Shown: positions 3 to 41,687 of the stretch, one piece after another | Position numbering within the stretch: the first letter of the stretch is position 1 | Layout: each line of letters begins with the position of its first letter | From: Chitinophagales bacterium | Lineage (GTDB): Bacteria; Bacteroidota; Bacteroidia; Chitinophagales; CAIODY01 | Reading direction: 5' to 3' | Length of the DNA: 64,000 bases | NCBI GenBank assembly: GCA_947452995.1 | Contig: CANGEV010000003.1 | Location: 62,001 to 126,000 of the forward strand | The notes under the pieces: model-generated | What the model was told of the DNA's origin: nothing | Seen by the model: the letters and a program-made list of their open reading frames with translations, nothing else | The model's database searches: none | Program-made: the position numbers and the translations under genes

Positions 3-854
3 GAGAATATAACGGACGAATTTATGTTAGGGCATTACCATGAATCGCATTTCGCTCCGATAGAAGCAGGCGACGCGGTTATATGCTTTAATTTCAGAAC
101 AGACCGTTGTAGAGAAATTACGCAATGTCTAACGCAAGAAGCGTTTCCAGCATTTGAGATGCAGCCTATCAAAGATTTACATTATGTGACAATGACGCGT
201 TATGACGACAACTTCAAGAATGTAGGCGTTTTATTCGACAAGGATAATTTACGTTTACCATTAGGGGAAGTACTTTCTAATGCAGGGAAAACACAGATAC
301 GAATTGCGGAAACGGAGAAATACCCGCATGTCACTTTCTTTTTTAATGGCGGAAGAGAAAATGTATTTGAAGGCGAAAAAAGAATTTTAATCCCTTCACC
401 AAAAGTAGCCACCTATGATTTACAGCCGGAAATGAGTGCTCCGCAAATTACTGAAGCTATCCTTCCAGAAATTGAAAAAGGTGAAGTGGATTTCATTTGT
501 TTAAATTTCGCAAACACCGATATGGTAGGTCATACAGGGGTATTCACCGCTGCGATGAAAGCTGCCTCAACCGTAGACAACTGTGTGCGACAAATTGTTG
601 AATTAGCAGTACGCAAAGGTTATAGCATATTCTTAACTGCAGATCACGGCAATGCTGATTTTATGGTAAACCCAGATGGAAGTCCGAATACAGCCCATTC
701 CATGAATCCTGTTCCACTATTCTTCATCGATCCGCAGGCGAACGATTATGATTTACACAGTGGAAAATTAGCCGACCTTGCTCCAACCATTTTGCAATGG
801 ATGGGCTTAACGGTTCCTAAGGAAATGGATGGAAAAAACTTGCTAAAACATTAA
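3..854 (+). CDS. gpmI: 2,3-bisphosphoglycerate-independent phosphoglycerate mutase, 3' part
   Basis: C-terminal part of the Mn-dependent glycolytic enzyme that interconverts 3- and 2-phosphoglycerate in the cytosol. The frame is open from the left window edge and begins with the ENITDEF stretch typical of the family, so the true start lies outside the window. Metal-site motifs of the alkaline-phosphatase fold are visible: FANTDMVGHTG near residues 160-170 and TADHGNADFM near 205-215 of the visible part. The C-terminus (PTILQWMGLTVPKEMDGKNLL) is complete. The last four bases overlap the end of the convergent BatA-like gene. Identification is firm; only the 5' part is missing. Confidence 0.95.
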   Translation, partial: ENITDEFMLGHYHESHFAPIEAGDAVICFNFRTDRCREITQCLTQEAFPAFEMQPIKDLHYVTMTRYDDNFKNVGVLFDKDNLRLPLGEVLSNAGKTQIRIAETEKYPHVTFFFNGGRENVFEGEKRILIPSPKVATYDLQPEMSAPQITEAILPEIEKGEVDFICLNFANTDMVGHTGVFTAAMKAASTVDNCVRQIVELAVRKGYSIFLTADHGNADFMVNPDGSPNTAHSMNPVPLFFIDPQANDYDLHSGKLADLAPTILQWMGLTVPKEMDGKNLLKH

Positions 855-2866
855 CGCCAAAAGCGCAAAAGAGCTACTTCAGCTAATACAAAAAGTAAGG
901 CAAGGATAATGAGCCACTGCCAATAGTGTATCCCTTCTTGCATTTGATTGACTACCACGCCTGCGTTAGCTGCGTCAGCTTCGATAATTGATGCGTGTAG
1001 CAATTTTGCCCAACTTTCTACATTAGTATATTCTACCGGGGCAGATTCATTTCGACTATAGTTGAACGCCAATTCATATGCCTTCGACTGATCCCCTAAG
1101 GTATAACAGCCCGGCTTATTCAATTGGTTATGAAGAGTGATAAATAGACTTTGTCCAACAATTCGTTGTTCAGGTATGACATCAATATTGGCTGATTTTA
1201 AATGATATGCTTCTTCCGCATTCTTCGAATTGTAAGGCAACTCTATCGGACGTGATGATCCTAAGTCATACGCCAAAGGCTTTCGATCGGAAGATGCCAA
1301 CATCATTTTAGCCATCATAGGTGCAAAAAGTGCTTTTCTTGAAAAATTCGTCGATTCGTTAGCTAGTGAAAAGCCAAAAACAAAGACTTCAACACTACCC
1401 TTCTGCGCCGCTATTAATAATGGCGTTTCCTCTTTGGAATTTAAAAGTACATCTCCATTCACGCCTGACTGTATGGTGGCAGAAAGTGAATATGCGCTAG
1501 TAACGGAAGGCATCTCCATAGACTCATCGATCTTGCGGAACATATCCTTAAAAAAGGGATTTTGCGCATTTATAGGAGATAACACAACAGGACTGTATTT
1601 TTTACCCAATCCAATACCATAGGCTTGAAGAAAAGAATTCAGGTCTTCCGCATTCTTATCAGCAGGAAAAAGTACTAGACTTAGGCTTTGACCATTGATT
1701 CGCTTTTCAATCGTGGCAAGAATTCCTCCATTGATGTTTGAAACGTCTTGAAGAATCAACACATCCGCCTGTTCCATTTGATTATAATTGATATGATTAT
1801 AATCGCTAAAAAAGAAATCCGCATTTTTAAAACCTGCTGCCAATGCACTAAAACAAGTACTATTCGTATTACTAGACAAGCAATACACATTGAAGCTAGA
1901 CTTTACCTCTAATGTAAAATAGTAATCGTTATCGAAGTTGATGGGCTCATCATTGATATGTAATACGCCTGTTGTATAACCTGACTGATGGACAGCAATT
2001 GGAATGGTATCGATTTGAATAGCCTTGGGTGCTATATTTACCGAACCAACATATTTCTGTTCTTTGTTAAGTGTTAGGCTTAAACGCACATTTTCAGCCG
2101 CATCCTCTCCATAATTATGTAAGCGCACCAATAATTTACTGGCCTGATCTTGCATTTGAATCGGTTGTTCTAGCCAACAGCTATCGATAGCAATATTCGC
2201 TTTTGAATTTGCGAAGAAAGGAATGGCAATGGCATGAATCGTAGAATCATTTACAAAAGAAGAAAAATTACGTTCCCCTTCTTGAAAGTCGGACAGATAA
2301 TAGCAATACGCGTTATCCGACTTATTCAACTCGATAATATCTTTTTGTTTTTCCAATATGCTATTCCACTTCGGTGAAGCGGGCACAATGGCAAGTTCTT
2401 CAACATATTGAATCGCTTGCTTTTTTGTCAGTAAACGTTGTTCATGACCATAGCAAGATGCACTTAAAACCTGAATTTGTGCAGCCTCTTTTTGTGCCTT
2501 AATGATTTCAATTGCTTTACGCCGGGCTAATTCAAAATTAGCCACCCCATTATTAGTATTGCGCATGCTAAAGGAATTATCCAAATAGATGCTTATGAGT
2601 GATGGGCTTTTTGCAGCTTGGTTAGTAAAGGGGATAAAGGGTTGCGCGAAGGCCAGTACCAAAGATGCGATCATCAACATACGGGCAAGTAGAACAAGCC
2701 AATGTTTTATTTTATTTCTTTGGTCACTTTCTTGTTGTAGTTCTTGTAGAAATCGGAAGTTAGAAAACTGCAAAACCTTATAGCGACGAAAGTTGAAGAG
2801 ATGAATCACAACAGGAATCGCCATCAAAGAAAGAAACCACAAATATCCAGGATGCAAAAAATGCAT
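851..2866 (-). CDS. BatA-type membrane protein with VWA-like domain
   Basis: A 671-residue inner-membrane protein. The N-terminus has the arrangement of BatA N-terminal domains: a membrane helix at about 7-24, the conserved HLFNFRRYKVLQFSNFRFL segment, and a second helix at about 57-77. A von Willebrand A-like domain follows with a MIDAS-like DNSFS (DxSxS) at 96-100. A final helix (about 648-667) lies at the extreme C-terminus, so most of the chain is periplasmic. It follows the MoxR ATPase gene by 12 bases, and MoxR/VWA pairs act as metal- or chaperone-type assembly modules. The exact substrate is unknown. The ATG start is not preceded by a purine-rich ribosome site, which is normal here. 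Confidence 0.85.
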   Translation of the reverse strand: MHFLHPGYLWFLSLMAIPVVIHLFNFRRYKVLQFSNFRFLQELQQESDQRNKIKHWLVLLARMLMIASLVLAFAQPFIPFTNQAAKSPSLISIYLDNSFSMRNTNNGVANFELARRKAIEIIKAQKEAAQIQVLSASCYGHEQRLLTKKQAIQYVEELAIVPASPKWNSILEKQKDIIELNKSDNAYCYYLSDFQEGERNFSSFVNDSTIHAIAIPFFANSKANIAIDSCWLEQPIQMQDQASKLLVRLHNYGEDAAENVRLSLTLNKEQKYVGSVNIAPKAIQIDTIPIAVHQSGYTTGVLHINDEPINFDNDYYFTLEVKSSFNVYCLSSNTNSTCFSALAAGFKNADFFFSDYNHINYNQMEQADVLILQDVSNINGGILATIEKRINGQSLSLVLFPADKNAEDLNSFLQAYGIGLGKKYSPVVLSPINAQNPFFKDMFRKIDESMEMPSVTSAYSLSATIQSGVNGDVLLNSKEETPLLIAAQKGSVEVFVFGFSLANESTNFSRKALFAPMMAKMMLASSDRKPLAYDLGSSRPIELPYNSKNAEEAYHLKSANIDVIPEQRIVGQSLFITLHNQLNKPGCYTLGDQSKAYELAFNYSRNESAPVEYTNVESWAKLLHASIIEADAANAGVVVNQMQEGIHYWQWLIILALLFVLAEVALLRFWR

Positions 2867-36215: not shown

Positions 36216-36797
36216 ATGAAAAAACAGTTTCTTTTCGCTTTACCGATTGCGGCTTTAATCGGTTTGATGTCTTTTAACTCTGCGATGAACACGTACGAGT
36301 TAGACGGTGCGCATTCAGGATTACGTTTTGGTGTAACCCATATGGGCTTGAGCACTGTAGAGGGATTTTTTACAAAGTGTTCTAGCAAGTTTGTATGCTC
36401 GGCTCCTGATTACTCTGATGCGAACGTTAGTTTCACTGCTGAAGTTGGAAGTATCAATACCTTTAATGAATACAGAGATAAAGATTTATTGTCACAAGGT
36501 TATTTTGATTCTGACAAATTTTCAACGATCAACTTCCAAAGTTCAGGTGTTAAATTATTACCGAATAATAAAATAATGATTTACGGAAATGTAACACTCC
36601 ATGGTGTAACAAAACCTGCTCAATTCGAAGGAACCCTTAAAGCAGGCAAAAACTTAATGAGCGGTAAAGAAACGATTGCTTACCATATGATTGGCGTAAT
36701 TAAGCGTTCAGATTTTGAATTAATGCCTAAATTACCGATTAGCATCGTTTCTGATGAAGTGGAAATTACAGCAAATGGGGAATTAAGCAAAATGTAA
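36216..36797 (+). CDS. YceI-family exported lipid-binding protein
   Basis: A 193-residue exported protein of the YceI family, a lipocalin-like barrel that binds isoprenoid-type lipids in characterised members. A signal peptide (about 1-25) is followed by the family pattern YELDGAHSGLRFGVTHMGLSTVEGFFTKCSS, VGSINTFNEYRDKDLLSQGYFDSDKFSTINF, and GNVTLHGVTKPAQFEG. Family length. The ATG at 36216 was chosen because a signal peptide starts there; an in-frame TTG upstream adds a charged stretch with no signal character. It probably has its own promoter. Physiological ligand unknown. Confidence 0.9.
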   Translation: MKKQFLFALPIAALIGLMSFNSAMNTYELDGAHSGLRFGVTHMGLSTVEGFFTKCSSKFVCSAPDYSDANVSFTAEVGSINTFNEYRDKDLLSQGYFDSDKFSTINFQSSGVKLLPNNKIMIYGNVTLHGVTKPAQFEGTLKAGKNLMSGKETIAYHMIGVIKRSDFELMPKLPISIVSDEVEITANGELSKM

Positions 36798-36811: not shown

Positions 36812-36842
36812 TTTGAATTTCATCCATTTTACCGTATATTTG
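36812..36842 (+). promoter_or_regulatory. Promoter of the rimP-nusA-infB operon
   Basis: TTTG (36812-36815), exactly 19 bases, then TATATTTG (36835-36842): a perfect match to the Bacteroidota housekeeping promoter TTTG-N19-TAnnTTTG. Transcription would start at about 36848-36850, giving a leader of about 60 bases before the rimP ATG at 36912. Confidence 0.75.
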
Positions 36843-36865
36843 CGTTAGAAAATGGAAAATGATAG

Positions 36866-36892
36866 AAAGGGGGACATTTGTTCCCCTTTTTT
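36866..36892 (+). terminator. Terminator-like leader hairpin (possible attenuator) before rimP
   Basis: AAAGGGG (36866-36872) pairs with CCCCTTT (36883-36889) around a 10-base loop, and the right arm runs straight into more T residues (six T in all, 36887-36892). It lies between the operon promoter and the rimP start chosen here. It has the form of an intrinsic terminator and is well placed for attenuation of rimP-nusA-infB. Regulation by it is inference. Confidence 0.6.
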
Positions 36893-36911
36893 CATACCCA
36901 CCTATGAAAAT

Positions 36912-37373
36912 ATGTTAAGTAACGAGCAAACAAAATTTATAGAAGATCAGTTAATGGAAGCATTAACAGATACAGATCTTTTCGTTGTAGAAAGTCATTT
37001 CTTACCTGATAGTCGAATTGAAATTTTTCTTGATAGCGACTCAGGCGTTACGATTAAGCAATGTACCTTAATCGCACGACACATTAACAAGGCCTTAATT
37101 GAAAAATATGGTGAAGAATTCGACTACGAACTAGAAGTCGGTTCAGCAGGCCTAGAGCACCCACTAAAAGAGCATCGCCAATACGTTAAAAATATTGGTC
37201 GTCAATTGGAGGTTACTTTTCTGGATGGAGCCTACTTAGAAGGCAAATTGACAGAAGTTGGCGAGGAACAGTTTACCATTCAATATATCCCTGCTAAAGC
37301 AAAGCATAAGAAAGAGCTTCGTACAATTCGTTTCGACGAGACAAAAGCTGTTTTAGTAGGTGTTACTTTTTAA
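36912..37373 (+). CDS. rimP: Ribosome maturation factor RimP
   Basis: A 153-residue cytosolic factor for 30S subunit maturation. Family features: VVESHFLPDSRIEIFLDSDSGVTIKQCTLIARHI, then YELEVGSAGLEHPLKEHRQYVKNIGRQLEV and the C-terminal SH3-like part. The ATG at 36912 (MLSNEQTKF) gives the usual family length. An in-frame ATG at 36852 would add 20 residues (MENDRKGDICSPFF...) encoded by the leader hairpin and not typical of RimP. First gene of the rimP-nusA-infB operon, 43 bases before nusA. Confidence 0.92.
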   Translation: MLSNEQTKFIEDQLMEALTDTDLFVVESHFLPDSRIEIFLDSDSGVTIKQCTLIARHINKALIEKYGEEFDYELEVGSAGLEHPLKEHRQYVKNIGRQLEVTFLDGAYLEGKLTEVGEEQFTIQYIPAKAKHKKELRTIRFDETKAVLVGVTF

Positions 37374-37416: not shown

Positions 37417-38673
37417 ATGAACCACGTTAATCTTATCGAGTCGTTCTCAGAGTTTAAAGAGTTCAAAAACATCGATCGCCCAACCTTGATGCGCGTACTC
37501 GAAGATGTATTCAAAACTCTTTGTCGTAAGAAATTCGGAACAGACGAAAATATCGATGTGATCGTTAATACAGAGAAAGGTGACCTTGAAATTTGGCGTC
37601 GCCGTATGATTGTGGAAGATGGTCAAGTTGAAGACCCGAATCTACAAATCGAACTTACAGAAGCCTTGACTATCGAGCCTGACTTCCAAGTAGGAGATGA
37701 GACGTATGAAGAAATCAAAATGGAAGATTTTGGTCGTCGCGCTGTTTTAACGGCTCGTCAGACTTTAGTTTCGCGTGTAGCAGAATTAGAGAAAGATGAA
37801 ATCTACAAGAAATATAAAGATCGTGTTGGTGAAATATTGAGTGCTGAAGTTTACCAAGTTTGGAAGCGTGAAATTCTTTGTTTGGATGATGATGGTAACG
37901 AATTAATCCTTCCAAAGAACGAGCAAATTCCTGCTGATACTTATAAAAAAGGTGATTCATTACGTGCTGTTGTTAAGAAAGTTGACTTGCGCAACAACAA
38001 CCCATTGATCATCTTGTCTCGTACAGAACCTACTTTCCTAGCTAAATTGCTAGAGTTGGAAGTTCCGGAAATCTTCGATGGCATCATTACCATTAAGAAA
38101 ATTGTTCGTGAGCCAGGTGAACGTGCAAAAGTAGCGGTAGAATCCTTCGACGATCGTATCGATCCAGTAGGAGCCTGCGTAGGTATGAAAGGAAGTCGTA
38201 TTCATGGCATTGTACGTGAATTACGCAATGAAAATATTGACGTTATCAATTGGAGTACAAATATTCAATTGATGATTCAACGTTCATTAACGCCAGCAAA
38301 AATCACTTCAATTGAAATGAATACTGCTGGTGACCATTCAAAAGTATTTTTACGCCCTGAAGAAGTTTCTAAGGCAATTGGTCGTGGAGGTGTTAACATC
38401 AAATTGGCTAGCCGCATGGTTGGTTGTGAGATTGATGTCTTCCGTGACAATGAAGAGGCAACTGAAGGTGATGAAGATTTCGATATCGAATTGCAAGAAT
38501 TTGCAGATGAAATCGATCAGTGGATTATTGATGCCTTAAAAGGTATCGGTTGCGATACAGCGAAAGACGTTCTTACTTTAGATGAAGAAGAATTGGCTCG
38601 TCGTGCCGACCTAGAGGAGGAAACCATTAAAGAAGTGGTAAGAATCCTTAAAACAGAATTCGAGAAAGGATAA
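37417..38673 (+). CDS. nusA: Transcription elongation/termination factor NusA
   Basis: A 418-residue RNA-polymerase-binding factor. Domains: N-terminal RNAP-binding domain (about 1-130), S1 domain (about 135-205: DRVGEILSAEVYQVWKREILCL), KH1 (about 230-300: RTEPTFLAKLLELEVPEIFDGII...GERAKVAVESFDDRIDPVGACVGMKGSRI), KH2 (about 310-370: VFLRPEEVSKAIGRGGVNIKLASRMVG) and a short acidic C-terminus with one helix-hairpin-like repeat. NusA promotes pausing and hairpin-dependent termination, so it could act on the hairpin in its own operon leader. ATG start; infB follows after 53 bases. Confidence 0.96.
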   Translation: MNHVNLIESFSEFKEFKNIDRPTLMRVLEDVFKTLCRKKFGTDENIDVIVNTEKGDLEIWRRRMIVEDGQVEDPNLQIELTEALTIEPDFQVGDETYEEIKMEDFGRRAVLTARQTLVSRVAELEKDEIYKKYKDRVGEILSAEVYQVWKREILCLDDDGNELILPKNEQIPADTYKKGDSLRAVVKKVDLRNNNPLIILSRTEPTFLAKLLELEVPEIFDGIITIKKIVREPGERAKVAVESFDDRIDPVGACVGMKGSRIHGIVRELRNENIDVINWSTNIQLMIQRSLTPAKITSIEMNTAGDHSKVFLRPEEVSKAIGRGGVNIKLASRMVGCEIDVFRDNEEATEGDEDFDIELQEFADEIDQWIIDALKGIGCDTAKDVLTLDEEELARRADLEEETIKEVVRILKTEFEKG

Positions 38674-38726: not shown

Positions 38727-41687
38727 ATGTCAGATCAACCCGCAAAAATATTTCGATTAGCCGCCGTTGCCAAAGAGCTGAACGTGGGTCGCGAGCACCT
38801 GGTGGAAACCTTGAATAAAAAAGGTTTCAAAGTAGATAATAATCCGAATGGCAAGTTGACGGAGGACATGTACCTTGTATTAATGAAGGAATACAATGCG
38901 GATGCTGCAGCTAAAATGGAGGCAGCCACCGTTAAATTGGAAAAACCTCATCCGGTTATTTTGGAAACAAAGAAGGAAGAAGCATTCATTTCTCATCGTA
39001 AAAAGGAGGAAGACCAACCTGAAATTGTAATCAAAGGTAAGATCAACCCAATTGCAAAAGCGAAGCCAGAAGGAAAGAAAATAGTTGACGAAGTTCCTGT
39101 TGTTATAGAAACTCCTGCTCCGGTAGAGGCTGAAACCCCAATAGAAGCTCCTGAAGCAAAGCCGACTAAAGTAAAGAAAACAGCAAAGTCAGAACCAGAG
39201 GTACCTGTTGAACCTAAGGCTGAAGAAATTGTTGTTACACCTGTAGAAGCACCTATTAAAGAAAAGGAGGTTGAAAAAATAGAACGTAAAAAGGTAACGC
39301 TAGAAGGTCCTAAAGTTGTCGGGAAGCTACCTTCGAAAGAAGAAGTTGAAGAAGAAGCTAAAGCAAAAAAAGCTGCAGCGGCCAAAGCTAAAGCTGCAGA
39401 ACCAATGCAGCCGGAAGTAATTAAGGCTGGCATTCAAGAGATGCAATTTGCACAGCCCACTAATTCTAGTGTGGAACCTGAGAAAATTGAGACCAAACGA
39501 GCTGTATTAAGCGGACCAACCGTTGTAAACAAGATTGATTTATCTCAATTCAATACGCCTAAGCCTGCGGATAAGCCTAGTGATAATAAATCTGGCAATA
39601 ACGCAGACAACAAACGTAAACGTATTCAAGCCAAACCTAATGAACGTTTTAAGCCTACTTATGGTAATCAAGGTGGTGGCGGAGGCAATCGTCCTGGTGG
39701 CGGCGGTGGCGGGAATCGTCCTGGTGGCGGTCCTAATGATCGAAACAGAAATCATAACAACAATAGAAGAGGTGAAGCTGCTCCTCCTCCAACGGAGCAA
39801 GAGATCCAAGAACAAATTAGAAAGACATTAGCTGAATTACGTGCTGGGTCTCAAAAAAGTAACAAGTCGAAATACCGTCGTGAAAAGCGTCAAGCACATG
39901 CTGACGAAGCGGCAGAAACAAACGCAAATCAAGATAGTAGCATATTGCATGTAACAGAATTTATCTCTGTTAGCGAATTGGCGTCTTTGATGAACAAATC
40001 AGCAATTGATATCATCAGAGCGTGTATGTCTTTAGGTATTATCGTTTCTATCAACCAACGTTTAGATGCGGAAATCATCGAAGTAGTTGCTGGAGAATTC
40101 GGCTTCAAAGCAACATTCGTAAAAGCGGATGAAGATTTAATTGAAGAAGATGAAATAGATGCTCCAGAGGATTTATTACCGCGCGCTCCGATTGTTACTA
40201 TCATGGGTCACGTCGATCACGGTAAGACTTCCCTACTCGATTATATACGTCGTGAGAATGTGGTTGCTGGTGAAGCCGGTGGTATCACCCAACATATTGG
40301 TGCTTATGAAGTGACTTTACCAAACGGAAAAGAAATCACCTTCTTAGATACTCCTGGTCACGAAGCCTTTACTGCGATGCGTGCACGTGGTGCGAAAGTG
40401 ACGGACGTTGCTGTTATCGTAGTTTCAGCTGACGACTCTGTCATGCCGCAAACAAAAGAAGCAATTTCACACGCACAAGCCGCAAACGTACCTATCATCT
40501 TCGCTATCAATAAAATTGATAAAGATGGCGCTAACCCAGAAAAAATCAAGGAGCAATTAGCAGGTATGAACTTATTAGTAGAAGATTGGGGTGGTAAAAT
40601 TCAATCCCAAGAAATCTCTGCTAAGAAGGGTTTAAACGTAGATAAACTTCTTGAAAAAATATTATTAGAAGCGGAAATGCTTGATTTGAAAACGAATCCT
40701 AATAAAGGAGCTATCGGATCAATCATTGAAGCAACTTTGGACAAAGGACGTGGCTATGTAGCAACGGTACTCGTTCAAGAAGGCACCTTGGAAATTGGTG
40801 ACGTAATTGTTGCAGGGGCACAGTTTGGTCGTGTAAAAGCGATGTTTAACGAACGTGGTCAAAAGAAAACAACAGCAGGACCTTCTACTCCAGTTCAAAT
40901 TTTGGGCTTAGATGGAGCGCCACAAGCAGGTGAAAAATTCCGTGCTTATGACGACGAACAAGAAGCGAAAGAGGTTGCAACAAAACGTCAACAAATTGTT
41001 CGTGAGCAAGGATATCGTACGAAGAAACATATCACATTGGATGAAATTGGTCGCCGTCTTGCATTAGGCAACTTCAAACAGTTAAACATCTTGGTGAAAG
41101 CCGACGTGGATGGATCTGTAGAAGCCTTAAGTGATTCGTTAATCAAGTTGTCTAACGAAGAGATTCAAGTGAATGTTGTATTGAAGGCTGTTGGTCAGAT
41201 TTCAGAAAGTGATATCTTATTGGCTTCGGCATCAGATGCGATTGTGATTGGCTTTAATGTTCGTCCGAGCTTGCAAGCACGTAAATTGGCAGAACAAGAG
41301 AATATCGAAGTTAAGCAATACTCTATTATCTACGACGCGATCGAAGAATTGAAAGCAGCGATCGAAGGTATGATGGTTCCTAAAACGGAAGAGAAAATTG
41401 TCGCTAATATCGAAATTCGCGAAGTATTCAAGATTACGAAAGTTGGTAACGTAGCAGGTTGTTATGTTATAGACGGTAAGATGAACAGAAATGCAAAAAT
41501 TCGTATAATCCGTGATGGTATCGTGATCTATGGAGGCGAATTAGCGGCCTTAAAACGTTTCAAAGATGACGTTAAGGAAGTTTCTGCCGGTATGGAATGC
41601 GGTTTGAGTATCAAGAATTACAACGACATTAAAGTAGGCGATATCGTAGAAGCTTACGAAGATGTAGAAGTAAAAAAGAAAATTTAA
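38727..41687 (+). CDS. infB: Translation initiation factor IF-2
   Basis: A 986-residue GTPase that delivers initiator tRNA to the 30S subunit. The IF2-N region ([28 protein letters not shown]) opens the protein, followed by a long Lys/Glu/Ala/Pro-rich linker and a Gly/Arg/Asn-rich low-complexity tract (about 310-355). The G domain has GHVDHGKTS (about 493-501), DTPGHEAF and NKIDK; domains II, III and C2 complete the protein, ending [13 protein letters not shown]. The linker is long compared with many bacteria. Last gene of the operon; a strong terminator follows 18 bases after the stop. Confidence 0.97.

Follow-up and report, generated by a model that had tools for sequence, protein, structure and literature searches.

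A conserved terminator hairpin in the rimP-nusA-infB leader of a Chitinophagales bacterium, with a probable role in NusA feedback

The genes rimP, nusA and infB follow one another on the forward strand of the window (the whole 64,000 nt stretch of DNA that was analysed), which belongs to a genome of 2.54 Mb; its nearest relatives by NusA are metagenome-assembled genomes of Chitinophagales. Pfam searches confirmed RimP, NusA and IF-2 domains downstream of a hairpin that lies between the promoter and rimP (Table 1). The promoter, upstream of the hairpin, is of the Bacteroidota type, and the spacing between TTG and TAnnTTTG is the established promoter layout of this phylum. The TAnnTTTG -7 box has been reported in Flavobacterium (PMC9723704). 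Direct reading of positions 36864-36892 on the forward strand gives AGAAAGGGGGAC ATTT GTTCCCCTTTTTT, which RNAfold folds into a 12-bp stem (36864-36875 with 36880-36891) containing two G-U pairs; the T tract is separated from the rimP start codon by 19 nt. The full leader sequence from 36813 to 36914 is TTGAATTTCATCCATTTTACCGTATATTTGCGTTAGAAAATGGAAAATGATAGAAAGGGGGACATTTGTTCCCCTTTTTTCATACCCACCTATGAAAATATG. The leader fold has a free energy of -22 kcal/mol (z = -3.4), a stability equalled by 2 of 200 shuffles, and a consensus scan places the terminator on the forward strand, with 0.5 terminator-like sites expected from shuffles of the region. Sequence, fold and scan thus agree that the consensus promoter, GGGG/CCCC stem and T-tail described in an initial annotation of this DNA are all present.

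Table 1. Coordinates of the features of the rimP-nusA-infB leader and operon within the window.
Feature	Position	Strand	Basis or remark
TTG, -33-type promoter element	36813..36815	+	19 nt before TATATTTG; Bacteroidota layout
-7 box TATATTTG (TAnnTTTG)	36835..36842	+	exact consensus; predicted transcription start about 36847-36850
Upstream ATG extension, in frame with rimP	36852..36911	+	no stop before rimP; unconserved; judged incidental
5' arm of terminator hairpin, AGAAAGGGGGAC, core GGGGAC	36864..36875	+	RNAfold, core of relatives, covariation
Loop ATTT	36876..36879	+	fold; core loop of relatives 3-8
3' arm GTTCCCCTTTTT	36880..36891	+	fold; GYYCCC core of relatives; outer A-U pairs overlap T tract
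T tract TTTTTT	36887..36892	+	sequence; predicted RNA 3' ends about 36889-36893
rimP (ribosome maturation factor)	36912..37373	+	PF02576; likeliest start ATG 36912, from which homologues align
nusA, proposed sensor and regulator	37417..38673	+	PF08529 and KH domains
infB (IF-2)	38727..41687	+	PF11987, PF00009

Bacteroidia loci were gathered through NusA and RimP homology, and a first set of 106 distinct rimP leaders was obtained. A hairpin with a T tract was scored in 103 of these, and no member of 530 dinucleotide shuffles reached the 10th percentile of the real scores; the three remaining leaders also have an imperfect GGGG/CCCC hairpin when inspected by eye. Folding gave a similar picture, with a free energy of -8 kcal/mol or lower in 103 of 106 leaders and in 6% of shuffles. 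The core GGGRRC, a loop of 3-8 and GYYCCC occur in 101 of the 106 leaders (GGGRRC in 99 of the 101, GAGGAC in two), and the T-rich tail is conserved position by position. In 98 of 103 relatives a TAnnTTTG box occurs no more than 60 nt upstream of the stem, and the TTTG-to-stem spacing has a median of 18 nt (10-25 nt, 5th-95th percentile). In Chitinophaga and its relatives (L012, L021, L025, L029, L030, L034, L039) a stretch resembling ATGATTCAA, or else ATGATWCTAACGAAG, is conserved immediately 5' of the stem to a degree that exceeds its surroundings; its frames differ and it is probably non-coding.

Covariation was counted on alignment A2, in which loops were trimmed to three bases (an earlier alignment, A1, had a misaligned 5' arm). 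Across 58 distinct sequences 94.7% of cells are paired and both-side changes occur in 7 of 10 pairs, figures which are biased towards structure for the six inner pairs, since these were picked by pattern. Double-change cells number 74. Shuffles give 19.6, with none of 500 reaching the real count, and slid structures give 3-14. The cells are not independent events, since related sequences share changes. The outer pairs, which were not used for picking sequences, contribute 27 (columns 3-21) and 18 (columns 2-22) double changes. Conservation and covariation in related rimP leaders had been put forward in the initial annotation as the test of the stem, and the 103 of 106 leaders and their compensatory changes bear it out. 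Judged from sequence, the hairpin is an intrinsic terminator close to the promoter and acts as an attenuator; because it is conserved in relatives, we discount a chance origin.

The ATG at 36852 had been taken as the start of an in-frame reading frame of 20 codons that might encode a leader peptide, in which case translation of the short frame would decide whether the hairpin forms. This frame does cross the stem, as it does in the nearest relative, but it has no stop of its own before rimP; it is open as far as 37373 (36852-37373, 173 codons) and is better described as an alternative N-terminal extension of RimP than as a closed leader ORF. Furthermore, an ATG between promoter and stem is missing from 67 of 103 relatives. 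Among the others, 10 frames continue into rimP, 10 close before the end of the stem and 16 terminate at other places, with unrelated codons. There is no conserved short ORF, and we regard leader-peptide attenuation as scarcely credible.

A wider sample of 158 genomes, together with six of family f24, supplied 115 rimP leaders from 32 families. A folding scan that took in odd hairpin lengths and interrupted tails found a single hairpin with a T tract at -8 kcal/mol or lower in 108 of the 115, as against 10% of shuffles, with at least one member in each of the 32 families; an ungapped scan gave 89 of 115, which is a lower bound. One of the seven loci below the cut, L207, has a hairpin farther upstream. 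The hairpin is therefore near-universal in the phylum and was noted for Flavobacteriaceae in 2021 (PMC9723704), so that the Bacteroidota setting, which had been presented as a peculiarity of this leader, is not one. Stem sequences differ completely between clades, examples being GAGGGGAC/GTCCCCTC, AAAGTGGGG/CCCCACTTT, ATAGCCCG/CGGGCTAT, TCGCCC/GGGCGA and AAGGC/GCCTT, and the T tract is retained throughout. It is the position and the terminator anatomy that persist, not the sequence, and this suggests that selection acts on termination itself.

Two variants of the arrangement were also seen in this sample. Several loci of families f36 and f54 (L162, L166, L146, L193, L134 and others) have reverse polarity, with a C-rich 5' arm, TCGCCC...GGGCGA, and a tail of TTTTTGTTTG or similar. 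Tandem terminator-like hairpins stand before rimP in L154, L158, L168 and L183 (f33), L171 and L187 (f49) and L148 (f45), the pair being GGGGGGC..GCCGCCC-T6 followed by CGTCCG..CGGGCG-T6, which recalls the tandem terminators of the E. coli leader.

Two explanations that dispense with attenuation can be set against these comparisons. The first is that the hairpin is the 3' terminator of yceI, which ends at 36797 on the same strand, about 70 nt before the stem. The rimP promoter, however, lies between yceI and the hairpin, and in relatives the hairpin is kept beside varied and often opposite-strand neighbours: the upstream genes form 51 protein clusters; of 93 nearest ORFs, 28 run on the opposite strand; and where the strand is the same, the stop is a median of 135 nt away. 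We rejected an upstream gene's terminator on this diversity and strandedness and allow it next to no probability, although the hairpin may, as a side effect, stop readthrough from yceI. The second explanation is post-transcriptional, the structure either stabilising the 5' end of the mRNA or tuning translation near the start codon. The stem ends close to the rimP start in relatives (median 14 nt), and Shine-Dalgarno sequences are rarely used in Bacteroidota (PMC9723704). Yet this distance varies widely (3-48 nt, 5th-95th percentile), and a stabilising or translational hairpin has no need of a T tract, which is nonetheless kept through complete turnover of the stem; we consider such a role improbable.

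The stem itself is not peculiar to the leader. Within the same genome the GGGRRC type also occurs in ordinary 3' terminators, and the hairpins at C1:59446, C4:50846, C6:53304 and C13:67917 lie just past stop codons and resemble terminators of this kind. One case, L228 (G000:C1:58600-60600, local 847-876, reverse strand), is a GGGGAC/GTCCCC terminator past the stop of one gene, with the start codon of a lipoprotein-like gene only about a dozen bases 3' of it. When the stem was made into a covariance model (R1), many terminators on both strands in relatives were matched, and the window's own hairpin was absent from the matches at E <= 0.05, so that the model cannot define a regulon. On the 3' terminators of the genome and the both-strand matches of R1 we rejected a dedicated stem motif or regulon, and neither a rimP-specific RNA motif nor a dedicated NusA recognition motif is visible in the sequences compared. 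A comparison of terminator strength with 3' terminators of the same loci was set aside, as the control set was polluted by false ORFs.

Searches against Rfam gave a consistent result. RF01770, the gammaproteobacterial rimP leader (cut-off 47 bits), had no match in the window region or in ten Bacteroidota leaders at E <= 5 or 2, and the E. coli leader, as positive control, scored 102 bits; no cis-regulatory family matched the window region above threshold at E <= 5. A match to STnc40 (E = 0.12) was below the gathering score and was taken as chance. A riboswitch or ribosomal-protein leader was likewise rejected, there being only 10-25 nt between TTTG and stem and nothing above the Rfam threshold.

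Which gene of the operon the element belongs to is indicated by family f52 (30 genomes, 26 genera), where a RimP match was found in none of the 30 genomes and NusA in 26. A hairpin with a T tract precedes nusA in 22 of these 26 leaders at -6 kcal/mol or lower (shuffles 5%) and in 18 of 26 at -8 kcal/mol or lower (shuffles 1%). The stem is GGGC/GCCC, and a typical leader has GATGGGCTnnnAGCCCATTTTTTG following a TTTTGTAA-like box. Of the four leaders below the -6 kcal/mol cut, L236 and L254 have a similar hairpin by eye. In L259, counted among the 22, the hairpin is a different one, which may belong to the upstream gene on the same strand; the nearest ORF is on the opposite strand in 20 of 26. 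In examples such as L264-L269 (G341, G214, G249, G164, G371, G367) nusA is the first gene and nusA, infB and a short rbfA-like ORF are still together. Since the terminator is kept before nusA where rimP is absent, the element goes with nusA-infB, and RimP cannot be required for it.

This bears on the possibility that the feedback factor at the hairpin is RimP, which binds rRNA, or IF-2, both of which are encoded in the operon. Naville and Gautheret (PMC2965389) mentioned feedback by RimP as possible, but the terminator of f52 has been kept at nusA without rimP. The f52 comparison separates RimP from NusA, not IF-2 from NusA, infB following nusA in all six loci checked. IF-2 has no known role in termination, and we judge either protein very improbable as the sensor.

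The terminator anatomy, the position after the promoter, the conservation with compensatory changes and the linkage to nusA are all evident in the sequences compared. From these we infer actual termination in this organism and a sensing role for NusA, a reading to which we assign a probability of roughly 0.68: the hairpin would be an attenuator in the rimP-nusA-infB leader at which NusA raises the frequency of stopping, and the operon would thereby damp its own output. RNA polymerase would start at about 36848 and, about 40-45 nt further on, encounter the hairpin with its U tract, where a fraction of complexes would stop and release an RNA of ~45 nt while the remainder read on into rimP-nusA-infB. 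NusA, which favours hairpin folding and pausing, would enlarge the stopped fraction, and plentiful NusA would lower rimP-nusA-infB output. Sensing of its own level by NusA, as the initial annotation proposed, is the best-supported mechanism, given that the element stays with nusA after loss of rimP and that NusA feedback has been published or proposed elsewhere. Three considerations count against it. The predicted hairpins look strong (median about -17 kcal/mol in the set of 106), and with such strength termination might be so complete that the switch could no longer be tuned; the GGGRRC stem, as described above, is shared with ordinary 3' terminators of the genome; and the loss of rimP does not distinguish NusA from IF-2, whose gene lies in the operon as well. 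The lack of a specific motif is compatible with NusA, because a general effect on hairpin-dependent termination would need none.

The same observations could be read more simply, as a terminator that stops a fixed fraction of transcripts and sets the operon's level or insulates it, with no factor sensing anything. The ~20 nt 5' of the stem show neither an antiterminator nor a ligand domain, and the stem is of an ordinary terminator type present at 3' ends in the same genome. Against this, near-universal retention after the promoter in 32 families and retention with nusA after loss of rimP suggest regulation tied to the operon, and responsiveness to NusA has been published for B. subtilis (PMC12288461). 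We regard a fixed fraction as unlikely, if not negligibly so, and prefer feedback through NusA. We would give an even chance to a broader proposition, that the 'rimP leader' is a terminator of the nusA operon, retained throughout Bacteroidota (as delimited in GTDB), its stem replaced clade by clade, which follows nusA rather than rimP and on which NusA acts through its general effect on hairpin-dependent termination, with no fixed RNA motif.

Few feedback loops could be simpler than a terminator that senses its own termination factor, and the comparisons suggest that such a loop has been kept across a phylum far from the model organisms while its sequence turns over. If the nusA-operon proposition is true, the rimP-less family is a natural demonstration of it. 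As comparative evidence, this family assigns the loop to nusA and speaks against the idea of RimP feedback left open in 2010. The rimP leader is also a compact site at which the action of NusA in Bacteroidota could be tested, and it suggests that a family is missing from Rfam. Our literature search, with most subscription journals outside its scope, found no paper on the phylum-wide distribution or the rimP-less case.

Premature terminators before rimP, to which the initial annotation referred, are known from other phyla, and feedback by NusA on this operon has been published for B. subtilis and proposed for S. agalactiae and E. coli. The rimP-leader was termed the 'most ubiquitous transcription attenuator' by Naville and Gautheret (2010, PMC2965389), who proposed NusA as its regulator; Bacteroidetes are not named in their main text. 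Their element, like ours, is a single G-rich/C-rich terminator hairpin with a T stretch, situated between promoter and rimP, with no visible antiterminator, and the 19 nt found here falls within their range of 4-130 nt before rimP. The stem core is GGGc(...)gCCC in their set; in Bacteroidia GGG and CCC are present, but as GGGRRC(...)GYYCCC, while the rimP-less family has GGGC/GCCC and other Bacteroidota clades have unrelated stems. Furthermore, their stem motif was specific to the leader within their own set, whereas here it is shared with ordinary terminators of the genome; we still file the hairpin as a rimP-leader attenuator, since stem specificity is a property of that set and not a criterion for calling one. 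RF01770 shares the gene position and class of function but models a leader with tandem terminators, and the E. coli rimP gene is preceded by two terminators, feedback by NusA having been proposed there as well.

NusA is a general factor for termination and pausing; B. subtilis cannot do without it, and about 75% of intrinsic terminators in that species are stimulated by it (PMC12288461). The same paper cites autoregulation of NusA by attenuation in the leader of the nusA operon. There, as here, an intrinsic terminator lies in the 5' leader of the transcription unit that includes nusA, but NusA dependence has been shown for B. subtilis where here we only infer it, and that leader is about 180 nt long (PMC2965389) compared with about 60. 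In the same phylum as our genome, a structured 5' element before rimP was among 64 structured 5' regions reported in 2021 for Flavobacterium psychrophilum (PMC9723704); it is kept in other Flavobacteriaceae and has no Rfam match, and the main text gives no mechanism, promoter spacing or phylum-wide spread for it. The closest architectural match is the compact rimP-nusA-infB leader of S. agalactiae, where termination 31 nt past the start was reported and NusA feedback proposed (PMC4448216), although the phylum and promoter type are different and the short RNA was there seen by RNA-seq. By comparison with these systems, the hairpin in the window appears to be a real, conserved attenuator of a kind already known.
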